The translations under genes and the position numbers were made by a program. Below are positions 3,989 to 20,730 of a DNA stretch of 23,488 bases, piece after piece. Source of the stretch: a virus; the IMG/VR virus record IMGVR_UViG_3300032665_000190, positions 1 to 23,488 of that record; one strand, written 5' to 3'. The notes beneath the pieces were generated by a model. The model was not told the DNA's origin. It ran no database searches and worked only from the letters and a program-made list of their open reading frames with translations. Positions within the stretch are counted from its first letter, which is position 1. Each line of letters begins with the position of its first letter.

Positions 3989-4324
3989 TTATGCAAATTG
4001 CTCTAAATCAGGTGGAGTCCAGCCTTCTGGTTTCAACACCTTACCATCTTCTCTTTTTAATACTTTACCTGTTATCGGATCAATCTTTGCTAAATTAGAA
4101 CGTGCAACTTCTTTCCATGCACCTTCTACATCAAAACCTTTCATGTAACAGTAACCAAGAATCACCCAAATCATATCCATACAAGCATCAAGGTCTTCTA
4201 CCTTAGTCTTTGCATCCATGAACTCATTATATTCTTCTTCAATCAAATCAATATAAAGTGCTTCATTATCCCAATTTTTTTCTTGGTCACAAGCTTCGAT
4301 AAATTTTACTACATCATTATACAT
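3989..4324 (-). CDS. MazG-like nucleotide pyrophosphohydrolase
   Basis: This small all-alpha NTP pyrophosphohydrolase has 111 residues. The metal-binding pattern of the MazG/PRA-PH superfamily is present: EEEYNE at about 29-34 on the first helix, and EDLDACMD at 43-50 on the next. A PRA-PH-like tail follows (SNLAKID, then KREDGKVLKPEGW). Enzymes of this fold hydrolyse NTPs or dNTPs to monophosphate and pyrophosphate; phage versions have been linked to nucleotide turnover and ppGpp. The second ATG (4324) sits about 7 bases after GGAG, which is better than the first at 4330 where the spacing is zero. That Shine-Dalgarno lies inside the 3' end of the HNH gene, and the two genes overlap by 8 bases. 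It lies directly upstream of nrdA. Confidence 0.85.
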   Translation of the reverse strand: MYNDVVKFIEACDQEKNWDNEALYIDLIEEEYNEFMDAKTKVEDLDACMDMIWVILGYCYMKGFDVEGAWKEVARSNLAKIDPITGKVLKREDGKVLKPEGWTPPDLEQFA

Positions 4325-4904
4325 TATCATTCTCCAAATTATTATATATTCTCTTTATATGTAAGAAAAAATTTTCATTACTTCTATTCTTTTTCATATC
4401 ATTACAATCCCAACAACAAGAAACACAATTATACTTTATGTAACCTTGATTAGAATCAATTCTGTCGATACCCGTATATACAAAATCACCGCTGGTTTTT
4501 CCTTGACCTTTGATTATTTGTGTTCCTTGTCTGCCGCAGTAATTACATTCGCCTGTGACCAACTTTTCAAAATCTTCCATAGTCAAGCTATATTCAAGGT
4601 TTCTTTTTTTTGCACCTCTAATATATTGTTGCAACAAATTGTTTTTGGCCGCTTGACCTTTGGGTAATTGCCAAGGTTTCGTTTTTGGTCCAGTTGAATT
4701 TTTCCAAGTCGAACTATCATATTGTCTACATCCACAACTATTGCGTTTTTTTACACTAGAACCATTCATAATAGTTTCAGTATTGCAATAATTACACATA
4801 CACCTCAACTTAACGTGTTTTCCCTGTTGGTTTGACGGTAAAATTTCTAAGATTTTCAATCCACCAAAAATGTCACCAATATTATAACTACTCTTTCTTC
4901 CCAT
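4317..4904 (-). CDS. Free-standing HNH homing endonuclease
   Basis: This protein of 195 residues carries two zinc-binding regions. The N-terminal one has CMCNYC (35-40) and CGC (57-59). The HNH-type core has CNYC (120-123), the signature GIDRIDSNQGY (145-155), CVSCC (160-164) and WDCNDMKK (165-172). That arrangement, with a Cys-pair-supported HNH core, is typical of phage and intron-associated homing endonucleases. The start at 4904 (MGRKSS) is chosen because GGAG lies 6-8 bases upstream. It sits between thyX and the mazG-like gene, has its own perfect late promoter, and overlaps the next gene. Together these suggest an inserted mobile gene that does not belong to the nucleotide-metabolism operon around it. 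Confidence 0.88.
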   Translation of the reverse strand: MGRKSSYNIGDIFGGLKILEILPSNQQGKHVKLRCMCNYCNTETIMNGSSVKKRNSCGCRQYDSSTWKNSTGPKTKPWQLPKGQAAKNNLLQQYIRGAKKRNLEYSLTMEDFEKLVTGECNYCGRQGTQIIKGQGKTSGDFVYTGIDRIDSNQGYIKYNCVSCCWDCNDMKKNRSNENFFLHIKRIYNNLENDNV

Positions 4905-4932
4905 AATACACTCCATTTAGTGTTACTAAGAT

Positions 4933-4940
4933 TATTTATA
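4933..4940 (-). promoter_or_regulatory. T4-type late promoter for the HNH gene
   Basis: The minus strand reads TATAAATA, the exact T4 late-promoter element. It lies in the 38-base gap between the thyX stop (4943) and the HNH start (4904). Transcription starting about 6 bases downstream would give a short leader containing the GGAG ribosome site. It implies late, sigma-gp55-like expression of the endonuclease, separate from its early-type neighbours. Confidence 0.75.
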
Positions 4941-5618: not shown

Positions 5619-6641
5619 TTAACTCTTTTTCCAGTTGGTAAATTCTAATTTCGCTCTCAAATTTTGATATGTATGGTTAGTTATGATATCTTCAATTTCG
5701 TCCAATGAAAAACCATCTAAAACCATGTCGTTTATATCTTTACATTCCATCATTTCAGGCCAAATTACCACTTTGTAATGATCCTCAATGGCCTTTTCCA
5801 TTTGTTTGACAATTTCTTTATTCCGTGGTTCATTATCATAGATTAATACCACATTTTCTTTTGGTAATACTTTGGTGATAGATGTTAGATTAGAATCGGC
5901 AGTAGCCACAGCGTTCTTAATGAATAGAGAGTCAATAGGACCTTCCGTCACATAGATTGGTTGTTCCGTGTCGATCCTATCAAGTCCAAATACTTTATAA
6001 CCATCCACATCCAGTTTCATGGTGATATATCTAAGTTTAGATTCACCTAGAGCACGACCTTGGAACGCAATTAGATTTTTGTCTTTATCATAGAATGGTA
6101 TTACTAATCTTTTATCACCTTCAATTAATTTTTGTTGGCCAAGTTGATTAAAGCCAAGACCGTCTACAAAGGCTTTGAAATCTTCTGCATAGTATAGTGA
6201 ATCAAAAGCTCCGTCTGGGATTTTTCTATTTGTAATATAATCTCTTGCAAAATGTCCTTCTGGTAAGGAAGCAATGGAAGGGATTCCGAGTGATTTCTTA
6301 AATATCGGTTTCTCCGTTTTAAATCCCGAGAAGTCTGGTTTGGTATTGCTGATGTTTCTGGATTCGTCATGTTTGTATCTCTCCAATGCATATTCTTTCA
6401 GTAGACCTGGATCTACCTTTTCTAAGAAATTATAGAATGATGTGGATGCGCCACAGTTATGACACATGAAGAAGTAATTATTCTTCTTTTCGTAGATATA
6501 ACCACGGGCTTTGACTTTGTTTTTTTGTGAATCGCCACAAAGAGGACACCTGAAGTTATACAGGTTGTCTTTCTTTTGTGAGAATTTGTGGAGCTTAGGA
6601 GCTGCCCTAAGCAAAAAGGCTCTATCAATAAAAACGCTCAT
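5619..6641 (-). CDS. DNA primase, T4 gp61 type
   Basis: This primase makes RNA primers for lagging-strand synthesis, presumably with a gp41-like helicase encoded elsewhere. At 340 residues it matches T4 gp61 in size. An N-terminal zinc-binding domain has CPLC (32-35) and CHNC (60-63). The TOPRIM catalytic core is recognisable by VTEGPIDSLF with E233 and VVLIYDNEPRN with D269, followed by an acidic DIND (302-305). The C-terminal segment after this is also gp61-like. No clear Shine-Dalgarno precedes ATG 6641; the upstream bases are AT-rich, so initiation may be weak or dependent on upstream translation. The preceding gene ends 16 bases earlier. Confidence 0.93.
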   Translation of the reverse strand: MSVFIDRAFLLRAAPKLHKFSQKKDNLYNFRCPLCGDSQKNKVKARGYIYEKKNNYFFMCHNCGASTSFYNFLEKVDPGLLKEYALERYKHDESRNISNTKPDFSGFKTEKPIFKKSLGIPSIASLPEGHFARDYITNRKIPDGAFDSLYYAEDFKAFVDGLGFNQLGQQKLIEGDKRLVIPFYDKDKNLIAFQGRALGESKLRYITMKLDVDGYKVFGLDRIDTEQPIYVTEGPIDSLFIKNAVATADSNLTSITKVLPKENVVLIYDNEPRNKEIVKQMEKAIEDHYKVVIWPEMMECKDINDMVLDGFSLDEIEDIITNHTYQNLRAKLEFTNWKKS

Positions 6642-8070: not shown

Positions 8071-8694
8071 TTAGGCTCCTAGAATTTGTTTAATGTGATT
8101 AAACTTTTCTGTTCTATCGGCTAATCCAATGTCACCACCATTAATAATCTTAGTCATTTTAACAATATCACCTGCATCTGCTACGGCATTCAGGTTATTC
8201 GTTTCCCAGAACCAGCAAGCAGACTGTAATGCACCTTCAAACGTTTGCATATACTCTGAGGCTTCTTCGGCTGTAATCTCAATACTTGCTGCAAACCAAA
8301 AGTAGTTGTCTTTACCAGTAATTTGAATAGCACCACGACCACAGTATCTGTAACCATCACCGGACGCTTCATCACCGTTACCCATACGATTAGCATAGAT
8401 ACGGTTTGCAATTGCTTCCTGTTTATTTGGCTTTGCACAGTACTCTTGTGCTAACTCAATTGTAGGAAAGTATTTGTGAAATATTTTAATTAAAGATTCT
8501 GGTTTATAATTCAGATTCTCTTTAAGTGCTGTTAACCCATTAGACTCATGTACACATTGTGCCAAGAATCCTGCAATTCTTGCCGGTGTATTGATATCGT
8601 AATCTGGTAATAGTAATGCCAAATCTTTATACCAATGATCCAAATATGGATTCTTTGGTATGATTTGTCTTAGTTGGTCTTTTGTAAGTTCCAT
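8071..8694 (-). CDS. GH19 (chitinase-like) endolysin
   Basis: This is a peptidoglycan-degrading lysin of 207 residues, matching stand-alone GH19 phage endolysins. The catalytic glutamate is in AQCVHESNG (E50), and a second acidic residue lies near KENLNY (E59). The family core GDGYRYCGRGAIQITGKDNY occupies about 112-131. Conserved-looking ACWFWETNNLN (159-169) and INGG (184-187) follow. No signal peptide is present, so release to the periplasm needs a holin, for which a candidate is encoded two genes downstream. The start at 8694 is preceded by a GGACAAC-like site just after the previous stop. The gene is flanked by lipoproteins and spanins, completing a Gram-negative lysis cassette. Confidence 0.93.
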   Translation of the reverse strand: MELTKDQLRQIIPKNPYLDHWYKDLALLLPDYDINTPARIAGFLAQCVHESNGLTALKENLNYKPESLIKIFHKYFPTIELAQEYCAKPNKQEAIANRIYANRMGNGDEASGDGYRYCGRGAIQITGKDNYFWFAASIEITAEEASEYMQTFEGALQSACWFWETNNLNAVADAGDIVKMTKIINGGDIGLADRTEKFNHIKQILGA

Positions 8695-9272: not shown

Positions 9273-9512
9273 TTATTTTGCAGTTTGGTGTGTTTGTACT
9301 AACCAGTCTACCGCATCCTTTTTGGTTTTATGTAATTTACTCATATCCCAATGTTTAGAATATGCTTTATGTGGTGTTTTTTTATTAGAAAATGATTGCA
9401 TAATGTTGCCAATATGTTGGCCATTATGGTGTACATTTAATATTGAACCGTCTTTAACAATTTTTGTTGCTTCATCTAATGGTTCTCCTATAAATGATTT
9501 GAAAGATTTCAT
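9273..9512 (-). CDS. Small head-interior protein candidate with capsid-targeting-like leader
   Basis: The protein has 79 residues. It begins MKSFKSFIGE, very close in pattern to the T4 internal-protein capsid-targeting sequence MKTYQEFIAE, which the prohead protease removes after (I/L)xE. A second such site, LDE, lies at residues 12-14. The remainder (about 22-76) is one mini-domain with VHHNGQHIGNI and DAVDWLVQTH. It closely resembles a segment inside the 807-aa protein at 14049-16472. The start overlaps the stop of the inner spanin gene (ATGA). I infer a small packaged internal protein made of a single copy of this module; packaging is not shown by sequence alone. Confidence 0.75.
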   Translation of the reverse strand: MKSFKSFIGEPLDEATKIVKDGSILNVHHNGQHIGNIMQSFSNKKTPHKAYSKHWDMSKLHKTKKDAVDWLVQTHQTAK

Positions 9513-10084
9513 GGATTAATCCTTTTCTGTTCTTTCAACCACATCTGTATACCAGTCATTTTGTCTGCGAGTTCGTGGTAGAGTTCGTAGTTGTCGGCAA
9601 CTGTTCTTTCGACTTCAGAGAGTGCAACTCCGGAACTGGATCCAGCCACTCCTTCGGGTAATCGGGAAACGGTACCTTTAGCGGCGTTGTCGTGAAGCAG
9701 GACGAAAGACTGAGGCACATCACACATATGGTCATCAGCGGTAGTAATTTGTTTAACAATTTCATCATGGACTATCCTATCTTGAATTACTTTATCATGT
9801 ATAACTTTAACAACTTCCTGTGTAACAACTTTTTGTTCTGATACAACTCTTTCAACTTCGGCTTTGGCACTTATTAAAACATCTTGCCTACCTTCTACAT
9901 AAAAACCAGCCGCAAAGACAACAATTGCCAATAATCTAATTGGCAATCTGTATAAAAAGGGAATTAATTTGTTGAGTATTGCTTCTAGTACAAAGAGCAC
10001 TACTCCCACTCCGACTATTGCCCATGGTACCCATGTCGGTAATAGACCTAGTAAATAATTAATTGAAAACAATGACGAAAACAT
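9509..10084 (-). CDS. Inner-membrane spanin (Rz-like), host of embedded o-spanin
   Basis: The protein has 191 residues. The N-terminus has two hydrophobic segments (about 18-36 and 44-62) followed by a long periplasmic region: coiled-coil heptads with many V, K and E (about 70-115), then CDVPQSF, a Gly/Ser stretch, and a C-terminal helix with DNYELYHELADKMTGIQ that looks like the end of Rz-type i-spanins. Two membrane segments instead of one is unusual for Rz. The decisive support is a complete lipoprotein gene embedded in another frame (9556-9768), the lambda Rz/Rz1 architecture. Spanins fuse inner and outer membranes in the last step of Gram-negative lysis. Confidence 0.85.
   Translation of the reverse strand: MFSSLFSINYLLGLLPTWVPWAIVGVGVVLFVLEAILNKLIPFLYRLPIRLLAIVVFAAGFYVEGRQDVLISAKAEVERVVSEQKVVTQEVVKVIHDKVIQDRIVHDEIVKQITTADDHMCDVPQSFVLLHDNAAKGTVSRLPEGVAGSSSGVALSEVERTVADNYELYHELADKMTGIQMWLKEQKRINP
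9556..9768 (-). CDS. Embedded outer-membrane spanin lipoprotein (Rz1-like)
   Basis: The protein has 70 residues and is encoded entirely within the inner spanin gene in a different frame. It has a lipoprotein signal peptide with lipobox LSSC (lipidated C24), leaving a mature chain of about 47 residues. The mature part starts with a proline-rich segment (PLKVPFPDYPKEWLDPVP), the hallmark of Rz1 proteins, and ends in a Thr/Asn-rich tail. The initiation region is credible: AGGA at 9775-9778 on the minus strand is 6 bases from ATG 9768. Local base composition is more GC-rich than in surrounding genes, as expected for doubly constrained sequence. Partner: the i-spanin at 9509-10084. Confidence 0.85.
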   Translation of the reverse strand: MMKLLNKLLPLMTICVMCLSLSSCFTTTPLKVPFPDYPKEWLDPVPELHSLKSKEQLPTTTNSTTNSQTK

Positions 10085-10087
10085 GAT

Positions 10088-10693
10088 TTATGCCTTTGGC
10101 GGTTTTCTCTTAACCATGCCTAATAAAATTGGGCTTTTCTTTTTACGTTTATTGTTGTAAACCCCAGGTTCACTTTGGTTGCTATTAGGACCTTGTGCTC
10201 CCATACCTGCAACACCACCGGTTACTGCTGTTGGTCCTGCTGAACCTACGGCACCAGCGCCACCATCTTCAGCAATTTCTTCAACTTCTTCATTTTTCAT
10301 ACCGCTATGGTGTAAGTGTGCAACAATATCACCAGCTTCGTGTTTATTTTCCACTTTGTCTGTTTGATAGTCTTTATGTGATTCGTTACCTGGCCAATTT
10401 GGATTGCTACTACCATGATATCTCCACATATTACCTTCTTTTTCTACATCACCAACGTGTTCACCACTAGGAGAATGAACTCTATATTTACCCGAATGTT
10501 TTTGGCGCATTGTATAACCGTGAGCTACAGGAATACCTTTAGCTTCAGTAACAACTTCTTCTGGCACACAGTTAGGTACTGTTCCACCATTCTTCTCTTT
10601 GGTGCCAACAGCAGTATAACCAGACCAACAAGCCTTCTTAAGGCCACCAGTTGGTTTCTTAACTTCGTTGATAAAACTTTTAAATGATATCAT
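10088..10693 (-). CDS. Head-interior protein candidate with FINE leader and Cys mini-motif
   Basis: The protein has 201 residues from ATG 10693, which overlaps the preceding stop as TAATG; an ATG 12 bases further upstream is in frame but less likely. The leader MISFKSFINE matches the T4 capsid-targeting pattern, with a predicted protease site after INE. It continues with CWSGYTAVGTKEKNGG and NCVPEEV, a cysteine-bounded module also present in the next protein upstream. The V72-H130 region (RVHSPSGEHVGDV, later AGDIVAHLHH) looks like the mini-domain of the 79-aa protein. The tail is Gly/Ala-rich, then strongly basic (NKRKKK, VKRKPPK), suitable for DNA contact. I recognise no named family. Confidence 0.75.
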   Translation of the reverse strand: MISFKSFINEVKKPTGGLKKACWSGYTAVGTKEKNGGTVPNCVPEEVVTEAKGIPVAHGYTMRQKHSGKYRVHSPSGEHVGDVEKEGNMWRYHGSSNPNWPGNESHKDYQTDKVENKHEAGDIVAHLHHSGMKNEEVEEIAEDGGAGAVGSAGPTAVTGGVAGMGAQGPNSNQSEPGVYNNKRKKKSPILLGMVKRKPPKA

Positions 10694-11391
10694 TAGCAAT
10701 TCCACTTTCTTAAGGCTAATGCTTTACGTGTTGGCTTACCGTTTGGTTTCTTCATAGGTCCTTTAACGCCACCCATACGAGCACAGAATGATTTTCTACG
10801 ATTTGCAGCTTTAGAACCTGGTTTTAGTTTTGATGGCTTTGTTGTTACTGCCATACTTAATTTAGAACCTGGATGTTCTCTACGATATGAAGCAATACCT
10901 TTACGGTTCAAACCACCTTTAGGGTCTTTACCAGCACTTCTTTGCCATGCAGCCGATTCAAATAGTTCTTCGTCTGATACATCATCGAGGTCTTCCCAAA
11001 TAACTTCAGGATCAAGCTTGTTGACTTCTGCAATTTCCATAACAAGTTCTTCAATGATATCAAACATAACATCAGGATTATGTTCTTCTTTGAGCTCACT
11101 ACGCATATAATTGGCAACAGTCATAATGTAATCTTCCGCCAACGTGATTTTGGATTCAACCCATTCAGGTAAATCTGTTTTGTCACCAATCAAGTCCATC
11201 ATTTCTTGTGCATTATGCATGATAGTCTTTAATTGATTAACTGCCATATATGGATCAGAATATTCCGGATCTTTAGCTTCTGTAACTTCTTCTTTTGCAC
11301 AGCTACCAGGTGAATATGGTTCTTTACCGGATACTGGTTTATATCCAGTCCAGCATCTTCCTTTTTCTCTAATTTGTTTAAATGTTTTCAT
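10693..11391 (-). CDS. DUF6321-like protein with short leader, head-interior candidate
   Basis: The protein has 232 residues. The leader is MKTFKQIREKG, a shorter variant of the capsid-targeting pattern with IRE as the possible cleavage site. The module CWTGYKPV...SCAKEEVTEAK (13-40) is paralogous to that of the following gene. A helical domain (about 47-97, MAVNQLKTIMHNAQEMM, KITLAEDYIM) resembles a domain common in T4-like marine phages. The C-terminal 85 residues, rich in K, R and G (GGLNRKGIASYRREHPGSKL, FCARMGGVKGPMKK, ALRKWNC), match my memory of DUF6321. The start overlaps the upstream gene as ATGA. Its basic tail and leader suggest a nucleic-acid-associated head protein. Confidence 0.78.
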   Translation of the reverse strand: MKTFKQIREKGRCWTGYKPVSGKEPYSPGSCAKEEVTEAKDPEYSDPYMAVNQLKTIMHNAQEMMDLIGDKTDLPEWVESKITLAEDYIMTVANYMRSELKEEHNPDVMFDIIEELVMEIAEVNKLDPEVIWEDLDDVSDEELFESAAWQRSAGKDPKGGLNRKGIASYRREHPGSKLSMAVTTKPSKLKPGSKAANRRKSFCARMGGVKGPMKKPNGKPTRKALALRKWNC

Positions 11392-11774
11392 ATTTTGTTT
11401 AATATCTCTGCGACATCCATATCTAGTGGTATTTCTGATGACCTGATATTCTTTCCGTTGATACCATATATCATCTCCGGCATTAAATTCAAATAACTTA
11501 AGAAAGTCTTAAGTATATCATAGTCTCGCTCATCCGTTTTATAGAATAATATTCTTGCCATATGTTCTGGTCCAAAAACATTATTCAATAAAATGATATG
11601 ATTTAAAATCAGTCTCTCTTTCAATGACTTAGTAACTTTGTATCTACGGAATAATCTTTTAAGATACTTAGTACGCTTTATGTCACCTTCAAACTCCGAT
11701 TGGATACAATGAGGTGACGTATAGCACTTAGCCGCATACATCATAAAGTTATCTTCATTCAAATCATCGAACAT
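11388..11774 (-). CDS. Conserved T4-like phage protein, unknown function
   Basis: The protein has 128 residues from ATG 11774 (MFDDLNEDNF), predicted all-helical, with a basic segment KYLKRLFRRYKVTK and a later ILNHIILLNNVFGPEHMARIL. I recognise this as a small protein widespread in T4-like marine phages (DUF7207-like in my memory), of unknown function. The start is uncertain. The family usually begins MFDDLNED, but an in-frame ATG at 11801 has a better Shine-Dalgarno (GGAG, 8 bases away). That ATG would place the first codons inside the hairpin at 11784-11801, giving 137 residues. The gene overlaps the next one as ATGA. Confidence 0.82.
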   Translation of the reverse strand: MFDDLNEDNFMMYAAKCYTSPHCIQSEFEGDIKRTKYLKRLFRRYKVTKSLKERLILNHIILLNNVFGPEHMARILFYKTDERDYDILKTFLSYLNLMPEMIYGINGKNIRSSEIPLDMDVAEILNKI

Positions 11775-11783
11775 ATTGTAAAT

Positions 11784-11801
11784 ATGGGGCCGAAGCCCCA
11801 T
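11784..11801 (-). terminator. UUCG-capped hairpin, probable terminator
   Basis: The minus strand reads ATGGGGC-TTCG-GCCCCAT, a perfect 7-bp stem (five GC pairs) capped by the very stable UUCG tetraloop and followed by ATTT. It begins four bases after the stop of the virion structural protein gene, a typical place for a T4-family terminator. The following U-run is short, so it may act mainly as a 3' stabiliser or a partial terminator. It also covers the alternative ATG of the next gene. Confidence 0.7.
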
Positions 11802-11804
11802 TTG

Positions 11805-12461
11805 TTATACTCCAGCGAAGTAAGTTAGTGAATTACTTGTGTTACCAGAGATTACGTTAGCTGCTGAAGGATTTGCCAAAACAACTAATGTCTCTACTTG
11901 AACACGACCAGCACGGCCGCCAGTACCTGTTGTAACTACAGCCCAACCTGCATGACCGCCTGCACCAGAACTTAGATTATAGTTTGATGAGTTTGCAGTA
12001 CCAGCAAAAACTGCATTAGCCAAACGAGTTGGTGTAACTAATACTGTATTCTGGTTGTAGTTAACTTCTGAAGGTTTATTTGAATTGTAAACAGTTGCGT
12101 TGTCAAACTCAGTAGTAAACGCAGTAGTTACAGCACCAAATAAGTTAGTAGACAAAGTAATTGTGTTACCACTTGTTGATAGAACTTGAGTATTTGATGC
12201 AAAGAAACCAGGAACACCGTTACCTGCTTGGCCACCGTTACTTGCGGAAGTACCTTGAGCCCAAAAGTAAACATATTGACCAGCAACTACACCGATGTTT
12301 GCCACATTGTTCTGTGCGCCATCATTGTAACTGACTTTGATTATATTATTACCAGCGGTATTACCAGCAAAAACAGGTAGTTGTACTGCTTCTGAGGTTG
12401 TGCGTTCAAAATTGAACTTTGGTTTTGCGTTGTTGTTGTCGTTATTTGACCATGCTGACAT
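11805..12461 (-). CDS. Virion structural protein, T4-like marine phage type
   Basis: The protein has 218 residues and is rich in Asn, Gly, Ala, Thr and Ser with few charges, typical of beta-rich capsid-decoration or tail structural proteins. The N-terminus MSAWSNNDNNNAKPKFNFER and the C-terminal GTGGRAGRVQVETLVV are patterns I associate with an abundant structural protein of marine T4-like phages. Codon choice is C-richer in places than its neighbours, consistent with high expression. It has its own late-promoter element 36 bases upstream, a good AGGAG site, and a strong hairpin directly after its stop, so it can be expressed as a discrete late unit. Whether it is a head or a tail component is not clear. 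Confidence 0.78.
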   Translation of the reverse strand: MSAWSNNDNNNAKPKFNFERTTSEAVQLPVFAGNTAGNNIIKVSYNDGAQNNVANIGVVAGQYVYFWAQGTSASNGGQAGNGVPGFFASNTQVLSTSGNTITLSTNLFGAVTTAFTTEFDNATVYNSNKPSEVNYNQNTVLVTPTRLANAVFAGTANSSNYNLSSGAGGHAGWAVVTTGTGGRAGRVQVETLVVLANPSAANVISGNTSNSLTYFAGV

Positions 12462-12495
12462 TTTGTGTATCTCCTATTGATAAGGTGTTTATATG

Positions 12496-14040
12496 TTATT
12501 TATTGTTTCTGTCACCGTTAGGATCTGATTGTCCTGGACGTGGATTATTCAAGTCTGGATCAATTTGTACTGTATCACGCTTTTGTCCAGTTAGTGTAGT
12601 TCCGCCAGTTAGAATGGCAGCTGCTTTGGTCTTTATGCCGTCAATATTTTTGGCTTGCTTACCTTTCTCAGCTGTTTGTAAAACTGGTTTTTTACCAAAA
12701 GTTGGATTCTGACCATACTTGTCATCTTTTTCAGAATCGTAAGTATCTTCAGCCATCTTTTTTTTGTATAGAGCCTTAATTTTACTGGCTCTACTTTCTT
12801 TTTGTTGTTCATTATCTGGTTGTGAATTTGGTTGTGAGATTGGTATCCCTACTCCCTTAATTGCAGCCATAGCGTCACCAACATCTTCAGGAATCGGTAT
12901 TTGTAAATGTGGTTGATCCTTATGGTCGTCATTCCACATCTTCATCAATTCTTTTTGCTTGTCAGCAATACCTTGATAAACTTTATGACGTTTATTGGCA
13001 TAATCCGACATCTTCTCAGAAGCAGATAACTTAGGTTTCTTAGCATCTGATAATACAGAACCGTTTACTGCCCAACCTTCAGTCACATCCGATTCGGTTT
13101 CAATCTTATGTTCTCTCTTGCCAGCCATTGCCAAACCCTTTTTACGGCGGTCTAGCATACGATTTACAATACCACTATACTCACCTTTGGTGTGTTTCTT
13201 CAATTCTTTAGTTTGTGCCTGAGCCTTTTGTTTGTAATCACCTAAAGAGATTTCATCCAGTTGGTCACCATCAAGTTCCACAGATTCAATTATACCTCTT
13301 AATTGAGCACCTGAACCTTGTGGTGTTTTGGTTACAGTATGTTTAGGTAAATCTCTTTTGATTGCCTGTTTGTGTTGGTAATCATTTAACTTTGGAGTAG
13401 TATCATCAACCGCCTCTCTAAAAGGCGTTTCAATGTCTTTATCAATATAGTGATCTTTATCAACTTTGTGTTTTGAACCAGGTTTTTTCAAATGGTCAAA
13501 ATTTTTACCGGCTTTTTGGTCCATTACCTCATCATCAGGATGTTTTTGTTTACCACCACCATATCTAGTACCTTGTTTAACCCCAGAATCACCAGAAGGT
13601 TGTGGACCTGCACGGTCTTTAACTGCTTTCATCATATCATCCCAACCTTCTTTACGCATTGTACCAGGAGGTGTTGGAATATTATAGTGAGCTTTTGCTT
13701 TAACCAATGTATCCAAACGTTTCTTGGTTGGAGAAACACTCAAATCAGTTTTATGGTCAACTCCAGTACCAGTATGGTGAGTTGTCAAATCTTCTCCTAT
13801 ATGATGTTGTTGCCATAATTTAAATTGATTAGATTTAGAATGAGCAACTTTAATATCTTTAGGAGTGTGTTTTGGATCAAATCCTCTAGACAACAAATAT
13901 TTGTTTAGACTAGGTGATTCAGATATTTTGTTTTGAGCCGACCATTGGTCGTTTGGATCTGTACCACCAACTTTTTGTTCTGGTGGTGCAGATGTAGGTC
14001 TCTTAACAATATCTAAAAGTTTTTTGGCTTTGGGTGTCAT
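12496..14040 (-). CDS. Large Lys-rich head/structural protein, unknown function
   Basis: The protein has 514 residues with over 15 percent lysine plus many Asp, Gln, Pro and Gly; it is mostly low complexity and probably disordered. The N-terminal part (about 27-80: DPNDQWSAQNKISES, SLNKYLLSRGFDPK, KVAHSKSNQF) matches a recurring segment I associate with T4-like marine phages. Residues 255-309 hold LDGDQLDEISLGDYKQKA and RRKKGLAMAGKR, the same LDE(L/I)S...Y...K module found in the 807-aa protein. LDE at 261-263 is a possible prohead-protease site. AAGGA precedes the ATG by 6 bases. Position and composition suggest a head-core or internal protein; no enzymatic motif is seen. Confidence 0.75.
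   Translation of the reverse strand: MTPKAKKLLDIVKRPTSAPPEQKVGGTDPNDQWSAQNKISESPSLNKYLLSRGFDPKHTPKDIKVAHSKSNQFKLWQQHHIGEDLTTHHTGTGVDHKTDLSVSPTKKRLDTLVKAKAHYNIPTPPGTMRKEGWDDMMKAVKDRAGPQPSGDSGVKQGTRYGGGKQKHPDDEVMDQKAGKNFDHLKKPGSKHKVDKDHYIDKDIETPFREAVDDTTPKLNDYQHKQAIKRDLPKHTVTKTPQGSGAQLRGIIESVELDGDQLDEISLGDYKQKAQAQTKELKKHTKGEYSGIVNRMLDRRKKGLAMAGKREHKIETESDVTEGWAVNGSVLSDAKKPKLSASEKMSDYANKRHKVYQGIADKQKELMKMWNDDHKDQPHLQIPIPEDVGDAMAAIKGVGIPISQPNSQPDNEQQKESRASKIKALYKKKMAEDTYDSEKDDKYGQNPTFGKKPVLQTAEKGKQAKNIDGIKTKAAAILTGGTTLTGQKRDTVQIDPDLNNPRPGQSDPNGDRNNK
12497..12504 (-). promoter_or_regulatory. Late promoter-like element for the virion structural protein
   Basis: The minus strand reads AATAAATA, matching the relaxed late-promoter form NATAAATA described for marine T4-like phages. 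It overlaps the stop codon of the 514-aa gene and lies 36 bases upstream of the ATG at 12461. This spacing is like that of the two exact TATAAATA sites in this window. Because the match is inexact in AT-rich DNA, confidence is moderate. Confidence 0.5.
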
Positions 14041-14048
14041 ACTATTCC

Positions 14049-16472
14049 TTAGTTGGCAATCTTGCCCAACATTTCATTTTTCAAACGGTTCATTGTTTTC
14101 TTTGCCAATTCCCTAGCATTCTTCAATGGTTTTGCTTCTGCTGTAACGAATGGATGGTCACCAACACCAGAACCTGCTTCAGGTCCTTTGAAAGCCTCAT
14201 CAGTTTTCTTTAGAGCATCTTTCTTGACCATCTTTTTAACTAATGCTTTATCTTCTGCTTCATCATCGTGTTCAGTTTCTTCACCAACAGTCAAAGCAAC
14301 TTTATATGATTTAGATTTGTTATGGTAATCAGCAGGCACTTTCATACGACCACGTAGACCGTCAACAGTCTTAGTGTTCATATCAGTTTCACCGTCAACT
14401 CTAACGTGCTTGTCAGCTTCTTTATCTACTGCTTCTTTTTTCACTTTCTCATCATCTTTATGTTCCATATCTTTCTTAGACCAATTCTTAGTATAGACTG
14501 TACCAGTAGATGTTTTCTTAGGAGTGTGTGACTTTGGTGCAAAGATACTTGGCTTCTTATCAGTCTTGTAATCTGTAAATGCGTTTTCGTCCAACTCTAC
14601 TTCTTCTTTTTTAACTTTTGTATCTTGTAGGTGCTCGGCGTGGGCCTGTCTCAGGTCAGCAATTGCATCTTCTGCACTTCTGGAACCAGCAGTCATATCA
14701 CCAGTAGCATCGTGATGCATACCATATCGTGTGCCAGTTCTGTGTGAATATGAACTAATTAAACCAATCTTTTTACCTTTGTGGTGAACATCTTGGTTAT
14801 GGCCGCCTTCTTTATTTTTTACTTTTTTACCGAGAGTAATATGTGTCATTGTACCTTCATCTAATTCAACTTCTTCTTCTTCATTCATGCCATATTCAAA
14901 TTCTTCAAATTTTCCACCTTTTGCTTTTAATTTACTATGAGCTTTTTGTAAGTGGGCTACTTTCTTTTGTTTTTCCGCTGGACTCATTGTAGCTGCATTT
15001 TGTTTGAATTTACTGACACCTTTATGGAGATAAGAATTCAAAGCATGAGTAGACAATTCATCCAATTGCTCTTCATCTAATTCAACTTCTTCATTCTTTG
15101 GTTTCTCACCAGTTTGTGGAACACCAACTTTCTTTTGTAGGTCTTTACGCATACCTTTATCGTCCGGATGACCAACTTTAGATAGAATCTTCTTAGCCAC
15201 ATCTTTTAGGCTTTCCGTTACTTCCATTTCTTCTGGTAGATTTGGTTTAGTGTGTTTGCCTAATGATGATTTAATGGCACTCTTTAAACGACTTGGTTGA
15301 GAATCTCTTTCACCTTGAGAGAACTTATTTTTACTGTCTGGTCTATTTCCTGATGGAATATTTCTCAAATCGGTTTGACCTTCTCTTGGTTTCTTGTTGA
15401 CAATATTTGTACCAATACGACTACGCAATTCGTCTTTCTCATCCAATGTAACTTCTTCTAATGTTGTGCCTGTAACTTCTACAGAGTCACCCATATAGCG
15501 TCCTTTTCCGTAATCGTTTGCGGCACCGCTTTGTATTTTTTCTCCTGCTCTTTTTAAGGCTTCTGCATTTTTTGGATCTTTACGATATGCTTCTGCTTTT
15601 TTCATAGCATTTTCATGTGTTTTACTACTTAATTTTTCAAGTTTTTTATGTTCATCATGGTCGCCTCTTGCTAATGCTTGTTGTGCGTGATGATAGTGTA
15701 CACGAGATTGGTGTATCATGTCTGATGCTTCTTTTCCAAAATACTCGCTGTGCTTTTCTGGTTTTGCTGGTGCCGGTGTTTTTAAGATTTTTTCATTGCG
15801 GTCTTTCAATGCTTTGGCATTCATTGCTTCACGTTCTTTTATTTTATCATCTATTGATTTTGTTTCTTCGGACATTGCTTTACTCAACATCTTTGTACCT
15901 TTGTCGGCTTTGTTGAAGTCTTTAGCAACAGATTGTGGAATACCAACTTTCTTTGCAAACTTTGGATTGTGTGCAGCTGCAGCCATTGTACGTGCTTGCT
16001 TTTCGGATGTGCTCTTTTCCAAAAGACGTTCTTTGAAAGACTTACCTTCTTTGTGCATTTCTTTCTCGTGTTTACCAACTTCTTTATCAGCAATCTTCTT
16101 CGCTTTCATTGGAGTTACACAATTGCCTTCTTCATCCAATTCTGTTTCTTCCGCACTCATAGCAATTGCTGGCTTACCTAGAGCTGCTTTTTTATCATCT
16201 TTCTTTTTAAGAATTTGACCTTTAAGTGTTTCTGGAGTAATATTAGGTTCTTCTTCAATCATTACGATTTGTTTCTTTCCTACTGGTCTCTCGTAACCTG
16301 ATACCAATAAATCTTTTACTGGTTTCATTTTACCTGTATGTGGATCAATATTGAAATCATAGATTTCTTCACTTAACATAGCTGGTTTTTTATTTTCTAC
16401 GACCGGTTCTTCACCGATGACTGAATTAACAGCATCAATCATAGATTTAGATATTTTTGATTTTCCGAACAT
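14049..16472 (-). CDS. 807-aa modular head protein with repeated LDE protease-like sites
   Basis: This very charged protein (Lys, Glu and Asp dominate) begins MFGKSKISKSMIDAVNSVIG and then EE, so an IGE site lies at 19-21. Acidic motifs of the form EExxLDE recur at about 110-114, 340-345, 461-467 (with a second LDE at 470-472), 531-539 and 623-629. Each separates lower-complexity or small globular segments. One segment (about 541-615, DVHHKGKKIGLIS to EDAIADLRQAH) is a mini-domain shared with the 79-aa protein. Another (470-515) is shared with the 514-aa protein. (I/L)xE is the specificity of T4 prohead protease gp21. I infer a head-core or internal protein processed into several pieces. The start overlaps the upstream stop as TAATG. 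Confidence 0.75.
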   Translation of the reverse strand: MFGKSKISKSMIDAVNSVIGEEPVVENKKPAMLSEEIYDFNIDPHTGKMKPVKDLLVSGYERPVGKKQIVMIEEEPNITPETLKGQILKKKDDKKAALGKPAIAMSAEETELDEEGNCVTPMKAKKIADKEVGKHEKEMHKEGKSFKERLLEKSTSEKQARTMAAAAHNPKFAKKVGIPQSVAKDFNKADKGTKMLSKAMSEETKSIDDKIKEREAMNAKALKDRNEKILKTPAPAKPEKHSEYFGKEASDMIHQSRVHYHHAQQALARGDHDEHKKLEKLSSKTHENAMKKAEAYRKDPKNAEALKRAGEKIQSGAANDYGKGRYMGDSVEVTGTTLEEVTLDEKDELRSRIGTNIVNKKPREGQTDLRNIPSGNRPDSKNKFSQGERDSQPSRLKSAIKSSLGKHTKPNLPEEMEVTESLKDVAKKILSKVGHPDDKGMRKDLQKKVGVPQTGEKPKNEEVELDEEQLDELSTHALNSYLHKGVSKFKQNAATMSPAEKQKKVAHLQKAHSKLKAKGGKFEEFEYGMNEEEEVELDEGTMTHITLGKKVKNKEGGHNQDVHHKGKKIGLISSYSHRTGTRYGMHHDATGDMTAGSRSAEDAIADLRQAHAEHLQDTKVKKEEVELDENAFTDYKTDKKPSIFAPKSHTPKKTSTGTVYTKNWSKKDMEHKDDEKVKKEAVDKEADKHVRVDGETDMNTKTVDGLRGRMKVPADYHNKSKSYKVALTVGEETEHDDEAEDKALVKKMVKKDALKKTDEAFKGPEAGSGVGDHPFVTAEAKPLKNARELAKKTMNRLKNEMLGKIAN

Positions 16473-18301
16473 TATTTTGCTCCCTTTTTCTTATTAATTT
16501 TTATTCCGGCTAATTGCATTTTGTATTTTTTATCGCCATAAGTAGACATAGTTTCTTTATTATCTACATTACCTGCTACACCACCTAGACCTGGATCACC
16601 TAAACCCGGATCATCTATTGCCTCTTTTGTAACTTGCTTTCTAAAAGCACTAAATCTTTTTGTTTCACCTAGGCCCATTTGTAAACCTGAGCGGTCGCTA
16701 ACTGTTGGACCTGGCCCATTACCCATCGTATTTCTTCCACCATGTGACGGATTACCAGAAGTTTTTCTTCTGCCGTTCTTATCTATGTTGTTGTCTTTGG
16801 AGAAGTTCGAGGTTTTTTGTTCTGGACTGATTTTGAGCGTGGGCTGCGCTTCTTCTTGAGCTGCGTAGGCTCCTGATCCTGCTCCACCTGCGATGGAGTA
16901 ACCGTTGGGGTTTTTCCTCGGGAACGTGTCGCCTTTGATGGAGTCGGTTTGACCGAATCTGAGACCACCTCTTCGGTTGTCTGGGGTGGCATCGGCTGGT
17001 CCAGCGGTTTTGAAGGTGGGGTTGTATCTACCGTAGGTTTTAGCTTGAATAGATTTGCTATCTTTCTTAACATCATTCTTCTCTTTAAAAAGGTATTTGA
17101 ACGTTTCATTTATATTTAACTTATTGTGGTTTTCTAACCAGGAGAAAGCAATATCATTATATTCCTTATCATCTAAGAAATCATTGATATTATGATAAGT
17201 TTCGGTAATCTGTTGTTCTATTTCTCTATATGTAGGACTATTATCGAAACTTAAAATATTTCTAAATTGCTCTTGGAAGGCTTTATGAATCTTTTGTGAT
17301 TCTTCCCACTTATTCAAACGAATAGATTCAGAAATCATTCTATTCAACTTCTCATTTCTCTCTTTAGATACTTCATTAGTGGTATTAACAAACACCATCA
17401 TTGTTTCGTATCCTAGTTCTTCCAATTCTTCCTTGATAGTCATAATACGGTCATGGTCATCGGCAGGACCGTTGATAATCAATGGTGAACGGTTACGAAT
17501 TGCTTCTCTACGTAAGTCACCAGTTCTTTCAGACAATCTAACTTTATCTTGTAAGTAATCAAATGCTTGTGTAGTGTTTAACTCTACTGCTCTTGCTTCA
17601 GCAATTGCTTCACGGATAATGATATCTTTACCGGAACCAGGACCACCAGTCACAAAGATTGCTCTGAATTGACCACGGTCAATTTGTTCATGTAGACCCA
17701 TACCTTTACGTGTATCTTTCATCAATTCTTTTACATGAGCGTCCGATACATGGTGTGGAACACCTTTTCTAAACTCGTGGAAGTCTTTATTCTTTGCGTG
17801 TTCTCTCATCTTAGTACCAGACATACCTTCTTCACCTTCGGCATCTGGATCACGGTGACCAGCGGAGACAACACTAATTTTTTTAAAATTATAATGACCG
17901 TGACGACCTTTTACACCATTATATTTGTGTAGTAAGTCGTACATCTCTTTGACACGGTCAGATCCAGCAACTACTGTTAAGTGGTCATGGCCTGCAGCGT
18001 GTAATCTGGCAGCATGATGTAGAATTGTTGGTGTCTCTTTAGAAGATGCCTCAAAGTGTGTACCTGGTGAATATCTTTTTAAGTGTTTAACTTTCTGTTC
18101 AGCAGACAATGGATTCTTTTTAGAATCTTGCGAATGTGAAAGTACAACCGTATGTTTAGCCTTTTGCTTATTAGCAACTTCTCTAACCTTGTCAATCAAC
18201 TTAAGATGACCGGTAGTAGGCGGATTCATACGACCGAAAGCCATAACAACTGGCTTTTTACCTTCGTCTTCTTCCTTTAAAACTTGTAGAAATGATTTCA
18301 T
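16472..18301 (-). CDS. Nucleotidyltransferase-P-loop kinase fusion with capsid-targeting-like leader
   Basis: The protein has 609 residues from ATG 18301 (MKSFLQVLKEEDEG), one base after the upstream stop; an upstream in-frame start at 18361 is unlikely. The leader carries an LKE site at 8-10. Domain 1 (about 17-200) is a cytidylyl/adenylyltransferase of the HxGH superfamily: AFGRMNPPTTGH at 21-32, GSDR at 113-116, and MSGTKMRE at 160-167 in place of ISSTxxR. Domain 2 (about 212-370) has a Walker A GGPGSGKD at 219-226 and resembles zeta-toxin or polynucleotide-kinase-like P-loop kinases. The last 200 residues are Gly/Asn/Lys-rich and probably disordered. The substrate is unknown; NAD metabolism or nucleotide-end modification are possible. 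Codon use shifts to C-ending codons around 16800-17040. Confidence 0.85.
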   Translation of the reverse strand: MKSFLQVLKEEDEGKKPVVMAFGRMNPPTTGHLKLIDKVREVANKQKAKHTVVLSHSQDSKKNPLSAEQKVKHLKRYSPGTHFEASSKETPTILHHAARLHAAGHDHLTVVAGSDRVKEMYDLLHKYNGVKGRHGHYNFKKISVVSAGHRDPDAEGEEGMSGTKMREHAKNKDFHEFRKGVPHHVSDAHVKELMKDTRKGMGLHEQIDRGQFRAIFVTGGPGSGKDIIIREAIAEARAVELNTTQAFDYLQDKVRLSERTGDLRREAIRNRSPLIINGPADDHDRIMTIKEELEELGYETMMVFVNTTNEVSKERNEKLNRMISESIRLNKWEESQKIHKAFQEQFRNILSFDNSPTYREIEQQITETYHNINDFLDDKEYNDIAFSWLENHNKLNINETFKYLFKEKNDVKKDSKSIQAKTYGRYNPTFKTAGPADATPDNRRGGLRFGQTDSIKGDTFPRKNPNGYSIAGGAGSGAYAAQEEAQPTLKISPEQKTSNFSKDNNIDKNGRRKTSGNPSHGGRNTMGNGPGPTVSDRSGLQMGLGETKRFSAFRKQVTKEAIDDPGLGDPGLGGVAGNVDNKETMSTYGDKKYKMQLAGIKINKKKGAK

Positions 18302-18302
18302 G

Positions 18303-19502
18303 TTAATCGTGTACCATGTGTTCCGATTTATCTGTATAATGTACGTCTTTATGGTCTTCACTAGGTAAAACTACTGAACCTCTTGGAGAATGATTTGCTG
18401 GTCTTCCTCCTGCGTGTACAGAAATTCTAGCTACTGCCATTTTCTTACCAGTTTTCTTATGTGTACCATGTACTGTAACTGAACCACCACTTGTGTGTGG
18501 GTCTACGTGTAAACCATGGAAATGATCCAAATATTCGTCTACGTGTTTATGTAGGTCATATGTGTGGTGAGATTCATGTTCACCTGTCTTGGCATTTGTT
18601 TTTTGTCTCGATACAATATGCTTCAAATGTGTTTTTGGTGCTACTTCATGTTTAATAGTATCACGTAATTCATCGTGAGATTTTTTAGCAAGACCTTGTC
18701 TCAAACCATGTGCTACATTAGCATTCATTCTTTCAGAAGAATGTTTAATTTCTGCAGCTTTAGATTGGTCTTCTTTACTATTAGAATCTCTTAATTCTTT
18801 ATACTTTTTATGTGAATCACCTTTACCTGCAGGTAGATTTGCTTTAACAACTTTCTCATGTTCAGCTGTATGTTTAGACAAATCGTGTCCAGCCATAGTA
18901 CTCAAAGACTTAACGCCTGGATTAGAATAGTTTACATTTCCACTTCCTGTCTTAACAGAAATGGCAACTTTCTTTTCACTACGTGATTTTGCTGCGGCTT
19001 CAATTAAAACATTTAAGATTTCTTCATTTAATCTTTTGTGTGATTTACTTGTGGTAAGAATCAAGTCAGCGCTATTATTTGGATCGTGGTGACCAGTCTC
19101 ACTTTCATGGTCACTAGGTTGTGATGTCCATACAGTTCTTGTAACATCACCATGACCATATTTCTTCAAATGAGCTTTGATATGTTTGGCGGCATCAGCA
19201 GCAAGTTTTTGTGATTTCTTGTGTGCTACGGATTTTTGATAGTTTTCACCGTGCATTTTAGTAGCATGAATGTGATGCATCTCAGCTGGAGTTTTACCTT
19301 CAGCACGATAACTCGACATATGCTTGCCACCATTAAGGTGTTGGCCAACTTCCAATTCTCTTAGTTTACCTTTAGAATCGGCTGAAGCACCTGCACCACC
19401 AGCTTCAGCCAAATATTCTTCGTCTAATATCTGTTCTACGATAGTTTTCTTTTTGATTAAGCCGGCATTTTCTAGCCATATTTGTGTTTGTTTTGATATC
19501 AT
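18303..19502 (-). CDS. His/Lys-rich protein, possible PD-(D/E)XK-like nuclease
   Basis: The protein has 399 residues, strikingly rich in histidine and lysine. The N-terminus contains ILDE (25-28) and LAEAGGAG (31-38), both (I/L)xE sites before a small-residue stretch, so an N-terminal propeptide of about 33 residues may be removed. Residues 143-200 show NSADLILTTS, KKVAISVKTGSGNV and NYSNPGVKSL. This is reminiscent of a nuclease core with an Asp on one strand and xVK on the next, but the usual Glu before the Lys is Ser here. The call is tentative. The start overlaps the ligase stop as ATGA. It is sandwiched between a ligase and a nucleotidyltransferase/kinase, which favours a nucleic-acid role. 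Confidence 0.6.
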   Translation of the reverse strand: MISKQTQIWLENAGLIKKKTIVEQILDEEYLAEAGGAGASADSKGKLRELEVGQHLNGGKHMSSYRAEGKTPAEMHHIHATKMHGENYQKSVAHKKSQKLAADAAKHIKAHLKKYGHGDVTRTVWTSQPSDHESETGHHDPNNSADLILTTSKSHKRLNEEILNVLIEAAAKSRSEKKVAISVKTGSGNVNYSNPGVKSLSTMAGHDLSKHTAEHEKVVKANLPAGKGDSHKKYKELRDSNSKEDQSKAAEIKHSSERMNANVAHGLRQGLAKKSHDELRDTIKHEVAPKTHLKHIVSRQKTNAKTGEHESHHTYDLHKHVDEYLDHFHGLHVDPHTSGGSVTVHGTHKKTGKKMAVARISVHAGGRPANHSPRGSVVLPSEDHKDVHYTDKSEHMVHD

Positions 19503-20677
19503 TTTCTTGCCTTTAACAAATTTGCTTTTGCGAATTCTTTACGGTTAACTAACTTATCTGGTGTTCCTTCGTGGTTAACAACGTAACCTTCAGGATCAGT
19601 AGGTTTACCATTTATATGATGTTCTAGTCCACCAGGATGCTGATTCAAAGTATTTACTAATACATCTTTAGCTTTTTGAATATGTTGGTGCATATCTAAA
19701 GCTGATTTATAATGTTTCTTATTTGCATCAATATGATCCATGTGAATCTTTAATTCTGATGCTTTTTTACCTCTGGCAGCAGGTGTCTTTAACTTTTCTG
19801 TTGCTTTCTTATACTTATCAGCAATATGTTTCTTTAGACCTTCGGGTGTAGGTTTCTCATCTGTACGAACGGTATGATTTATATATGTGGCTAAGTGTCC
19901 GCCATCACCACCGTGCATTTCGATAGCTTTATACATCTCTTTTCCACCAGCTTTGTGTATCTTTTCAGCCGCATCCATGTGTTTCTGAAATTCTTTCTGG
20001 TCTGGTTCAGAATAATGAACGTGTTTTGTGTTCATTTCTGCTGATTTGTGCCATACATCTGGATGATGGCCAAAGTTATGATGGTCTGGATGTGGATCCG
20101 CCTTCATATTATCTAATGTGTCACCATGATATTGTTGGTGAACCACTACTCCCAACTTGGCTTTTTTAACTTTTTCAGCCTCATCACCTTTGGCAGTATA
20201 TGAGATTGTGTTAGGAGTAAACTGTGCCTTTCCGCCTGGTTTATTCTTCACATCACCATGAGAGAACATTACATCACCTTGGTATACACCATGTTTTGGT
20301 GCAACTTTCTTAAGGTGTGTTAATGATGATTGTAATTTATCTACTAGACCAGGAGCGTGTCCATGGTTCTTTTGAATATCTGCGGAAGTATAGTTAATCT
20401 TCGGATTCTTGTTGAAAGCAGACTTAGAAGCGACAAAGAACTTACCAGTTTCTGGATGATGACCAAACACCAAAGATGGTGAACCGTCATACTTCATTGT
20501 TAGGTCTGAACTGTTACCGCCAGATTTGATGTGATTATGTGCTTTGTTCAGTACGGCTTTGGCACGGTCAAAACCTTTAGCGCCTGACATTAATGGTCGG
20601 TCTTCAGGATGAGTGATGTGCTTTAACTTGCCATCTCCCTCATCTTCTTCTTTAAGAAATTGTAAAAATGCACCCAT
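19499..20677 (-). CDS. Nucleic-acid ligase-like nucleotidyltransferase (DUF6267 type) with capsid-targeting-like leader
   Basis: The protein has 392 residues. It starts MGAFLQFLKEEDEG, with an LKE site at 8-10, the same leader form as the nucleotidyltransferase/kinase. The catalytic signature of the covalent nucleotidyltransferase (ligase/capping) superfamily is clear: motif I KYDG with K62, GVYQGDVMF (130-138) as motif III, EGYVV (363-367) as motif IV and KLVNRKEF (375-382) as motif V. The segment between motifs III and IV is His-rich. I recall related phage proteins being grouped as DUF6267. It would join nicked or broken DNA or RNA, using ATP. It is the first gene after the late promoter at 20723, so it is expressed at the time of head assembly. 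Confidence 0.82.
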   Translation of the reverse strand: MGAFLQFLKEEDEGDGKLKHITHPEDRPLMSGAKGFDRAKAVLNKAHNHIKSGGNSSDLTMKYDGSPSLVFGHHPETGKFFVASKSAFNKNPKINYTSADIQKNHGHAPGLVDKLQSSLTHLKKVAPKHGVYQGDVMFSHGDVKNKPGGKAQFTPNTISYTAKGDEAEKVKKAKLGVVVHQQYHGDTLDNMKADPHPDHHNFGHHPDVWHKSAEMNTKHVHYSEPDQKEFQKHMDAAEKIHKAGGKEMYKAIEMHGGDGGHLATYINHTVRTDEKPTPEGLKKHIADKYKKATEKLKTPAARGKKASELKIHMDHIDANKKHYKSALDMHQHIQKAKDVLVNTLNQHPGGLEHHINGKPTDPEGYVVNHEGTPDKLVNRKEFAKANLLKARK

Positions 20678-20722: not shown

Positions 20723-20730
20723 TATTTATA
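20723..20730 (-). promoter_or_regulatory. T4-type late promoter for the head-interior operon
   Basis: The minus strand reads TATAAATA exactly, followed by TATCACGG. It lies in the only sizable intergenic gap (112 bases between the glycosyltransferase-like stop and the ligase ATG at 20677) and gives a leader of about 40 bases. It probably drives the ligase, nuclease-like, nucleotidyltransferase/kinase, 807-aa and 514-aa genes as one late transcript. No convincing terminator is visible in the rest of the gap. Confidence 0.78.

Follow-up and report, generated by a model that had tools for sequence, protein, structure and literature searches.

Why do five proteins encoded in one block of a genome fragment from an aquatic T4-like phage start with related leaders of about ten residues? 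The question is posed by the window analysed here, the whole IMG/VR contig IMGVR_UViG_3300032665_000190 (23,488 bases), in which all recognised genes lie on the minus strand. The original prediction, made from the sequence alone, had likened the leaders to the capsid-targeting sequence (CTS) of the phage T4 internal proteins, which the prohead protease gp21 cuts after [IL]-x-E. The five starts, all ATG on the minus strand, are confirmed at 20677, 18301, 11391, 10693 and 9512 with the residues predicted, and every leader ends in [IL]-x-E. Leader 1, MGAFLQFLKE (20648-20677), stands on a 392-residue DUF6267 protein (19499-20677); leader 2, MKSFLQVLKE (18272-18301), on a 609-residue nucleotidyltransferase (16472-18301); leader 3, MKTFKQIRE (11365-11391), on a 232-residue protein (10693-11391); leader 4, MISFKSFINE (10664-10693), on a 201-residue protein (10088-10693); and leader 5, MKSFKSFIGE (9483-9512), on a 79-residue protein (9273-9512) with another [IL]-x-E site (LDE/A) at residue 14. 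We suggest that the five are T4-type capsid-targeting sequences on a late cassette, whose products would be packed into the head, trimmed by gp21 and injected, and we assign this reading a probability of about 0.82.

Four of the five leaders fit the CTS pattern exactly (about ten residues, aromatic at position 4, hydrophobic at 7 and 8, Glu at 10), position 7 being Val in the leader of the 609-residue protein. MKTFKQIRE is one residue short, and the claim of a ten-residue leader thus holds for four; the identical leader of one environmental relative (L002) scores 7.1, under the cut-off of 8 of the weight matrix described below, and in another relative (L077) this position is occupied by MKTFKQFINEKGRCW. 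The original prediction had proposed a search of all proteins of this phage with the leader: a regular expression, devised after the leaders had been seen, matches only these five starts among the open reading frames (ORFs) of at least 45 residues in the window. A purine-rich stretch upstream, or an overlap with the preceding gene, is found for four of the five leader genes; the start at 18301 is without a clear ribosome-binding site and has an earlier GTG in the same frame. The carriers had been called otherwise unrelated, which is right in that they form four families and wrong for the 201- and 232-residue proteins, which share a Cys-Trp-x-Gly-Tyr module behind the leader.

The weight matrix was built from 92 distinct leaders of 80 environmental loci (L002-L081) and from no T4 sequence. 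These loci, the best 80 of at least 596 confirmed DUF6267 relatives, are close relatives of shared ancestry, and one of the six search peptides used for DUF6267 relatives lay inside the leader. The pattern M-x-x-F-x-x-hydrophobic-[ILVM]-x-E stands at the aligned start of the DUF6267 protein in 80/80 loci, a count redone on the full set and not on the selected loci of the alignments below. Across 11 genomes or contigs, scores of at least 8 were given by 32 first-ATG starts versus 2 internal ATGs, with 0.55 expected from shuffled N-termini; one of those two internal ATGs is the window's own start at 18301, and the window's close kin, G001 and G002 are among or near the training loci. Eight genomes outside the training set gave 19 matches among 3805 first-ATG starts and 1 among 6699 internal ATGs, again with 0.55 expected (hand-summed). 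The recurrence of the leader is not due to chance. Matches that are spurious or outside the cassette do occur at cut-offs of 6.5 or 8 (a short ORF inside the S-SCSM1 DNA polymerase, a Melnitz methylase), and at 6.5 SPO1 has one match and Felix O1 two, including an internal TTG that scores 16.0. The scan of DLP6 at 6.5 found no match because it allowed no shift; the DUF6267 protein of this phage starts MMKFTQFLAE.

Alignments of two of the carriers show which residues are kept. Among 42 DUF6267 proteins (alignment A1: 62 of 80 loci matched from residue 1 or 2, and 41 of these plus the window were aligned), M1, F4, F7 and E10 of the leader are invariant and L8 is present in 41; among 30 nucleotidyltransferases (alignment A2: 29 of 35 loci plus the window, the match reaching residue 1 or 2), M1, K2, F4 and E10 are invariant and positions 7 and 8 mostly hydrophobic. 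This invariance is partly selected, because the loci were chosen for matches reaching residue 1 or 2. At residue 8 it is mainly the second codon base that is kept (157 leader DNAs), so that conservation is of the residue and not of the DNA. The likeness might instead reflect duplicated genes, or selection acting on the 5′ end of the mRNA, with no common targeting role, and leaders 1 and 2 do have FLQxLKEEDEG in common while leaders 3 and 4 precede related modules. We regard this origin as extremely improbable, since codons vary where residues are kept, several residues directly behind the leader vary, and T4 proteins of proven leader function score in the matrix. The leader is, moreover, common to 13 groups: 186 distinct leader proteins fall into these once the leader is removed, with no similarity detected between groups, although eight of the groups are single proteins and some may be chance ORFs.

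The comparison with T4 gives the leader its probable function. In T4 IPIII, targeting depends mainly on residues 4 and 7 and processing on residues 8 and 10 (PMC9026906, cited throughout from part of its text), and the conserved leader residues, 4, 7, 8 and 10, coincide with these functional positions of the T4 signal. The same source holds that the capsid-targeting sequence may be a general means of packing in T4-like phages. At a cut-off of 8 the matrix found no match in a 49-kb stretch of T4, and for this reason the cut-off was lowered to 6.5; a scan of the start codons of all ORFs of at least 50 residues in the whole T4 genome then returned only gp61.1 (24.5), IPII and IPIII (7.8 each) and IPI (6.9). 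The statement that the T4 internal proteins begin MKTYQEFIAE is true of IPII and IPIII; IPI starts MKTFKEFTST and has its ITE site later. As in IPII and IPIII, the leaders have an aromatic residue at 4, hydrophobic residues at 7 and 8 and Glu at 10, and as with IPI-IPIII they sit on unrelated proteins, in a group of phages whose complete records have a gp21-family protease. Unlike IPII and IPIII, the aromatic residue is Phe where T4 has Tyr, and the residue behind the cut (P1′) is mostly Glu where T4 has Ala. The carriers here also differ from IPI-IPIII in including much larger proteins with enzyme domains, and from the T4 internal proteins in that the aquatic carriers form one late cassette beside replication genes. 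No IPI-IPIII family was found among the Pfam and PHROG matches of the window, the IPI-IPIII content of those libraries being unconfirmed. T4 Alt, a packaged and injected enzyme (PMC9026906), offers a further likeness: a leader protein of the contig G002 (L093:4391-5257) weakly matches an ADP-ribosyltransferase family (PF03496, 20.0 bits, below the curated cut-off of 23.4). The five window proteins differ from Alt in giving no such match in Pfam.

By analogy with T4, the cassette of cargo genes would be transcribed late, and each leader would bind the prohead core, mainly via residues 4 and 7, so that its protein is built into the prohead. Residues 8-10 form the [IL]-x-E after which the protease gp21 would then cut; the mature protein would be kept in the head with the DNA and enter the next host cell with it. 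For the present phage we infer the whole chain of targeting by these leaders, cleavage and injection.

Do leader-bearing proteins reach the head? Published virion analyses of cyanophages (PMC3037559, PMC9602691 and PMC10665884, each drawn on here in part) bear on this; the hosts are Synechococcus, and in the parts drawn on the authors name no targeting signal. Orthologs of the 609-residue protein are present in purified virions in all three reports, among them the cytidylyltransferase family T4-GC190 of S-SM1 (PMC3037559). For S-CREM2, 52 of 219 protein genes are represented in CsCl-purified virions (PMC10665884). When its proteins are scored with the matrix, allowing shifts of 0-2 residues, the top four are the gp154 cytidylyltransferase, the gp6 S-adenosylmethionine (SAM) hydrolase, the gp14 kinase and gp136; all are virion proteins (chance about 0.003 from 52/219, by hand), and the score drops from 9.8 to 2.1 below the fourth rank. 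Three of four S-CREM2 enzymes are in the top three (P 2.3e-6, in a test that uses the classes of the paper and was chosen after the leaders had been seen). The matrix separated the carriers better than did regular expressions, and a strong leader goes with virion presence in this phage. In S-SCSM1 the gp91 adenylyltransferase, which starts MKSFLQFLKE, has the top leader score and is a virion protein (PMC9602691), and seven of the ten genes gp88-gp97 are virion-tagged (89, 90, 91, 92, 93, 95 and 97). A kinase of S-CRM01 is reported in virions (cited in PMC10665884); it is presumably the annotated kinase, which starts MISFDQFLSE. The cyanophage virion enzymes thus include nucleotidyltransferases orthologous to that of the window, and the leader is seen in S-CREM2, in S-SCSM1 and on the annotated S-CRM01 kinase.

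The S-CREM2 authors caution that such enzymes could be contaminants of the CsCl-purified particles (PMC10665884), in which case the detections would reflect abundant late proteins and have nothing to do with the leader. We judge this very unlikely. Chance poorly explains the detection of all four top-scoring proteins, the SAM hydrolase and the kinase are represented by 19 and 21 unique peptides (PMC10665884), and the DUF6267 proteins of S-CREM2 and S-SCSM1, which have no leader and are encoded outside the block, are absent from the virion proteins listed in the available parts of the reports.

The 392-residue protein behind leader 1 (PF19782, 5.3e-94) is an RNA/DNA-ligase-like cargo candidate. 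It has the motifs KYDG (residue 62), YQGD (132), EGYV (363) and KLVNR (375) in this order, and K62, D64, G65, E363, G364 and K375 are invariant in the 42 aligned sequences. By the motif definitions that we take to hold for the covalent nucleotidyltransferase (RNA/DNA ligase) superfamily, motif I KxDG followed by EGxV and a Lys-rich motif, all are present in order. A structural model has a predicted local distance difference test score (pLDDT) of 86.5, with residues 2-16 and 388-392 the stretches under 50, and it places the leader outside the folded domain. The best VIA-align match of the model is an RNA ligase (Z 9.4, root-mean-square deviation 3.6, 182 residues aligned), and each of the 50 rows listed is an RNA or DNA ligase; with the same model, Foldseek found nothing below E 0.001. 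The protein has a single [IL]xE, inside the leader. In the 42 related proteins the mature part has 28 such sites versus 99.9 expected by shuffling, as if protected from a gp21-like protease, although this depletion and the promoter counts given below are not independent events because the 80 close relatives share ancestry.

These sites also bear on the idea that the leader marks core or scaffold proteins of the prohead that gp21 destroys, like gp67 and gp68, and not surviving cargo. Such a fate would suit the 232-residue protein, with 9 [IL]xE versus 2.3 expected, and an 807-residue Lys/Glu-rich protein of the block (14049-16472), with 13 versus 7.9 in shuffled sequence (P 0.03); in the contig G005, moreover, a basic 96-residue protein with the leader-like start MLTFKEFLLNE (L105:3028-3315) is encoded directly upstream of the gp21 gene. 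We consider it unlikely for the leader as a whole, given that some carriers have conserved catalytic motifs, that the DUF6267 protein of the window has its one site in the leader, and that leader-bearing proteins persist in virions.

Where and when is the block expressed? The sequence TATAAATA, which we take to be the T4 late promoter sequence, lies at 20723-20730 on the minus strand and starts 53 nt ahead of the first leader gene. Of the 76 loci with sufficient upstream sequence, 68 have it exactly in the 160 nt that precede this gene and the other 8 have GATAAATA; it precedes other ORFs in 12 of 665 upstream regions. The window contains the exact sequence twice, each time on the minus strand; the second occurrence (4933-4940) precedes a 199-residue protein (4317-4916) with paired cysteines and, by eye, HNH-like residues, which has no Pfam match at E 0.01. 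Downstream of the block follow lysis-like genes and then a DNA primase (5619-6641), ThyX, NrdA and NrdB, recognised by eye from the translations. In HTVC008M, Melnitz-3, Syn9, S-MbCM7, S-CRM01 and P-RSM6 the block lies between the gp41 helicase and gp61 primase genes, and in S-SCSM1 before the primase gp99; the complete helicase-block-primase order was not seen in the stretches examined of C48C1, DLP6 and S-CREM2, the last of which has a helicase-like gene elsewhere in its genome. This proximity to helicase and primase genes in six annotated relatives, together with the low-confidence helix that the leader forms in the model, would suit a peptide that docks the proteins onto something other than the prohead, for instance the replisome or the membrane. 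We find that highly improbable, as the same matrix picks out the T4 head proteins IPI, IPII and IPIII, leader proteins occur in purified virions, and a late-promoter sequence stands before the block. Capsid targeting is further supported by the protease: a gp21-family member is present in 12 of 12 complete phage records, T4 included, which adds to the conserved functional residues, the recovery of the T4 internal proteins by the matrix and the virion orthologs. Of 10 environmental contigs, 4 have the family and most of the remaining ones are short; it was not found in SPO1 or Felix O1. By eye, the presumed major capsid proteins (assigned by position) of G001, G002, G003 and G005 have LxE about 50 residues in.

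Several observations weigh against capsid targeting, beside the caution of the S-CREM2 authors. No mature N-terminus has been seen, and the window contig is a fragment without gp21, capsid or other head genes. The P1′ residue is mostly Glu (73 of 157 leaders) and is Pro in the 79-residue protein. The 609-residue protein has 11 [IL]xE versus 4.8 expected and could be cut by an unselective protease. In S-CREM2 the 26 non-structural or hypothetical virion proteins do not score above the 167 undetected ones (Mann-Whitney P 0.24), nor is the regular-expression enrichment significant (P 0.09 strict, 0.15 loose); most such virion proteins would therefore enter without this leader. In S-SCSM1, gp30 lacks a virion tag despite its strong leader. 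In the block of HTVC008M such leaders are almost absent: the matrix gives one fair leader plus spurious matches, and the strict pattern found only two unrelated starts. Most directly, the original prediction had named relatives carrying the same proteins without the leader as a finding that would speak against it. Among 11 isolates with a DUF6267 gene, the leader is clear in three (Melnitz, C48C1 and DLP6), short and degenerate in HTVC008M and missing in seven (S-MbCM7, P-RSM6, S-CRM01, XG4, Syn9, S-CREM2 and S-SCSM1), so that the objection is borne out in part. For S-CREM2 and S-SCSM1, whose leaderless proteins lie outside the block and off the virion lists as noted above, the exception therefore fits our model.

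T4 itself offers a candidate. The gp61.1 protein (NC_000866 18966-19130, 54 residues, annotated as hypothetical) has the leader MKTFKEFIKE; its gene adjoins primase gene 61 inside the T4 gene 41-61 interval, which is the interval where the aquatic relatives carry the leader block. From its start and position, it may be an unrecognised internal protein of T4. We would tentatively go further and suggest, as a possibility we hold with more doubt than confidence, that fresh- and salt-water T4-like phages have a readable cargo code, with the leader as a plug-in, gp61.1 as the fourth leader-tagged internal protein of T4 and, as cargo, an injected kit of enzymes that act on nucleotides and nucleic-acid ends. 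The kit would plausibly consist of the ligase-fold protein, a polynucleotide-kinase-like domain and an adenylyltransferase, and in other phages of a SAM lyase, a protein kinase and an ADP-ribosyltransferase-like protein. If this is true, the kit would be at work ahead of all phage gene expression; it could, for example, repair cut tRNA or DNA or restore nicotinamide adenine dinucleotide against host defences, and the gain of a leader would turn a gene into cargo. Judged by titles and abstract openings, with few subscription journals covered, no publication treats leaders of this kind in T4-like phages of aquatic habitats, and DUF6267 is named in no paper within the same coverage. The leader would provide a sequence rule for predicting the proteins that are packed and injected by a group of aquatic T4-like phages, and it offers a way in for enzymes that have repeatedly been detected in cyanophage virions with no route known. 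Testable cargo is named by this rule in S-CREM2, S-SCSM1 and S-CRM01, besides T4 gp61.1, and it points to functions in the first minute of infection. The possible ability of the leader to bring large enzymes into heads would also be useful for phage protein delivery.

The 609-residue cargo candidate appears to combine a nucleotidyltransferase of the cytidylyltransferase/NMNAT type (PF01467, 4.1e-08) with a P-loop kinase. Its model, of low overall confidence (pLDDT 62.6, predicted template modelling score 0.36), suggests a nucleotidyltransferase fold at about residues 13-207 (Z up to 11.5) and a P-loop kinase at about 208-404 (Z up to 12.9), with polynucleotide kinases among the tied best fold matches of the latter; searches of PDB sequences with alignments A1 and A2 gave nothing useful. 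By eye, the leader of the nucleotidyltransferase is clear in six of ten isolates (Melnitz, Syn9, S-SCSM1, P-RSM6, S-CRM01 and S-CREM2), degenerate in HTVC008M and DLP6, absent in S-MbCM7 and ambiguous in C48C1. In HTVC008M (MIPFILKE) and Melnitz (MKTFAELQE) the kinase domain has a gene of its own, whose start, again by eye, is leader-like. The smaller carriers are modular as well. The 232-residue protein has a C-terminal DUF6321 (PF19846, 6.6e-21), the 201-residue protein has PHROG matches and the CWSGY form of the shared module, and in two relatives (L012 and L010) the modules of these two and of the 79-residue protein are fused in one 380-residue protein with one leader. On this sequence evidence the rule is one leader per polypeptide. 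Further leader carriers include a SAM lyase (PF23780) and a protein that matches a polynucleotide-kinase family (phrog_415).

Two block proteins start differently. A 399-residue protein (18303-19502, minus strand) begins MISKQTQIWLENAGL, and its orthologs in two relatives (L062 and L053) start MKSFKFWLKE instead. The 807-residue protein, a candidate packaged or core protein, has a second leader type, MFGKSKISKSMIDAVNSVIGE (16410-16472, minus strand), which ends in IGE. Three relatives match the protein over the first 24-26 residues only, and its stretch 154-211 is similar to phrog_22033 and phrog_25121 ('virion structural protein'); DLP6 has a similar start, MKISKSLMDAVVGALSE, by eye. We suggest that the starts of the 399- and 807-residue proteins may be alternative leaders. 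The first 21 codons of the gene at 14049-16472 encode MFxK[NS]K[IV]S[KQ]SMIDAVNxV[IL]GE, common to otherwise divergent proteins, and by eye this start resembles the N-terminus of gp22 of relatives.

Some minor observations concern neighbouring genes and annotation. The virion protein gp12 of S-CREM2 (OR473000 7704-10313), which is annotated Cas9, ranks 193 of 219 by leader score, with only the leader-like RFASFMAE among the first 25 residues; the name is doubtful because Pfam gives no match to support it at E 0.01. In the window, a membrane protein gene (9509-10084) with a small lipoprotein-like gene (9556-9768) nested in a different reading frame resembles, by eye, an Rz/Rz1 spanin pair, and an endolysin-like gene (8071-8694) has a weak chitinase class I match below the cut-off. 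In C48C1 (OQ984149 63451-64857), similarity to the cytidyltransferase begins at 63451, the annotated start is 63514 and there is no ATG between them; the gene may have been annotated about 60 bases too short.

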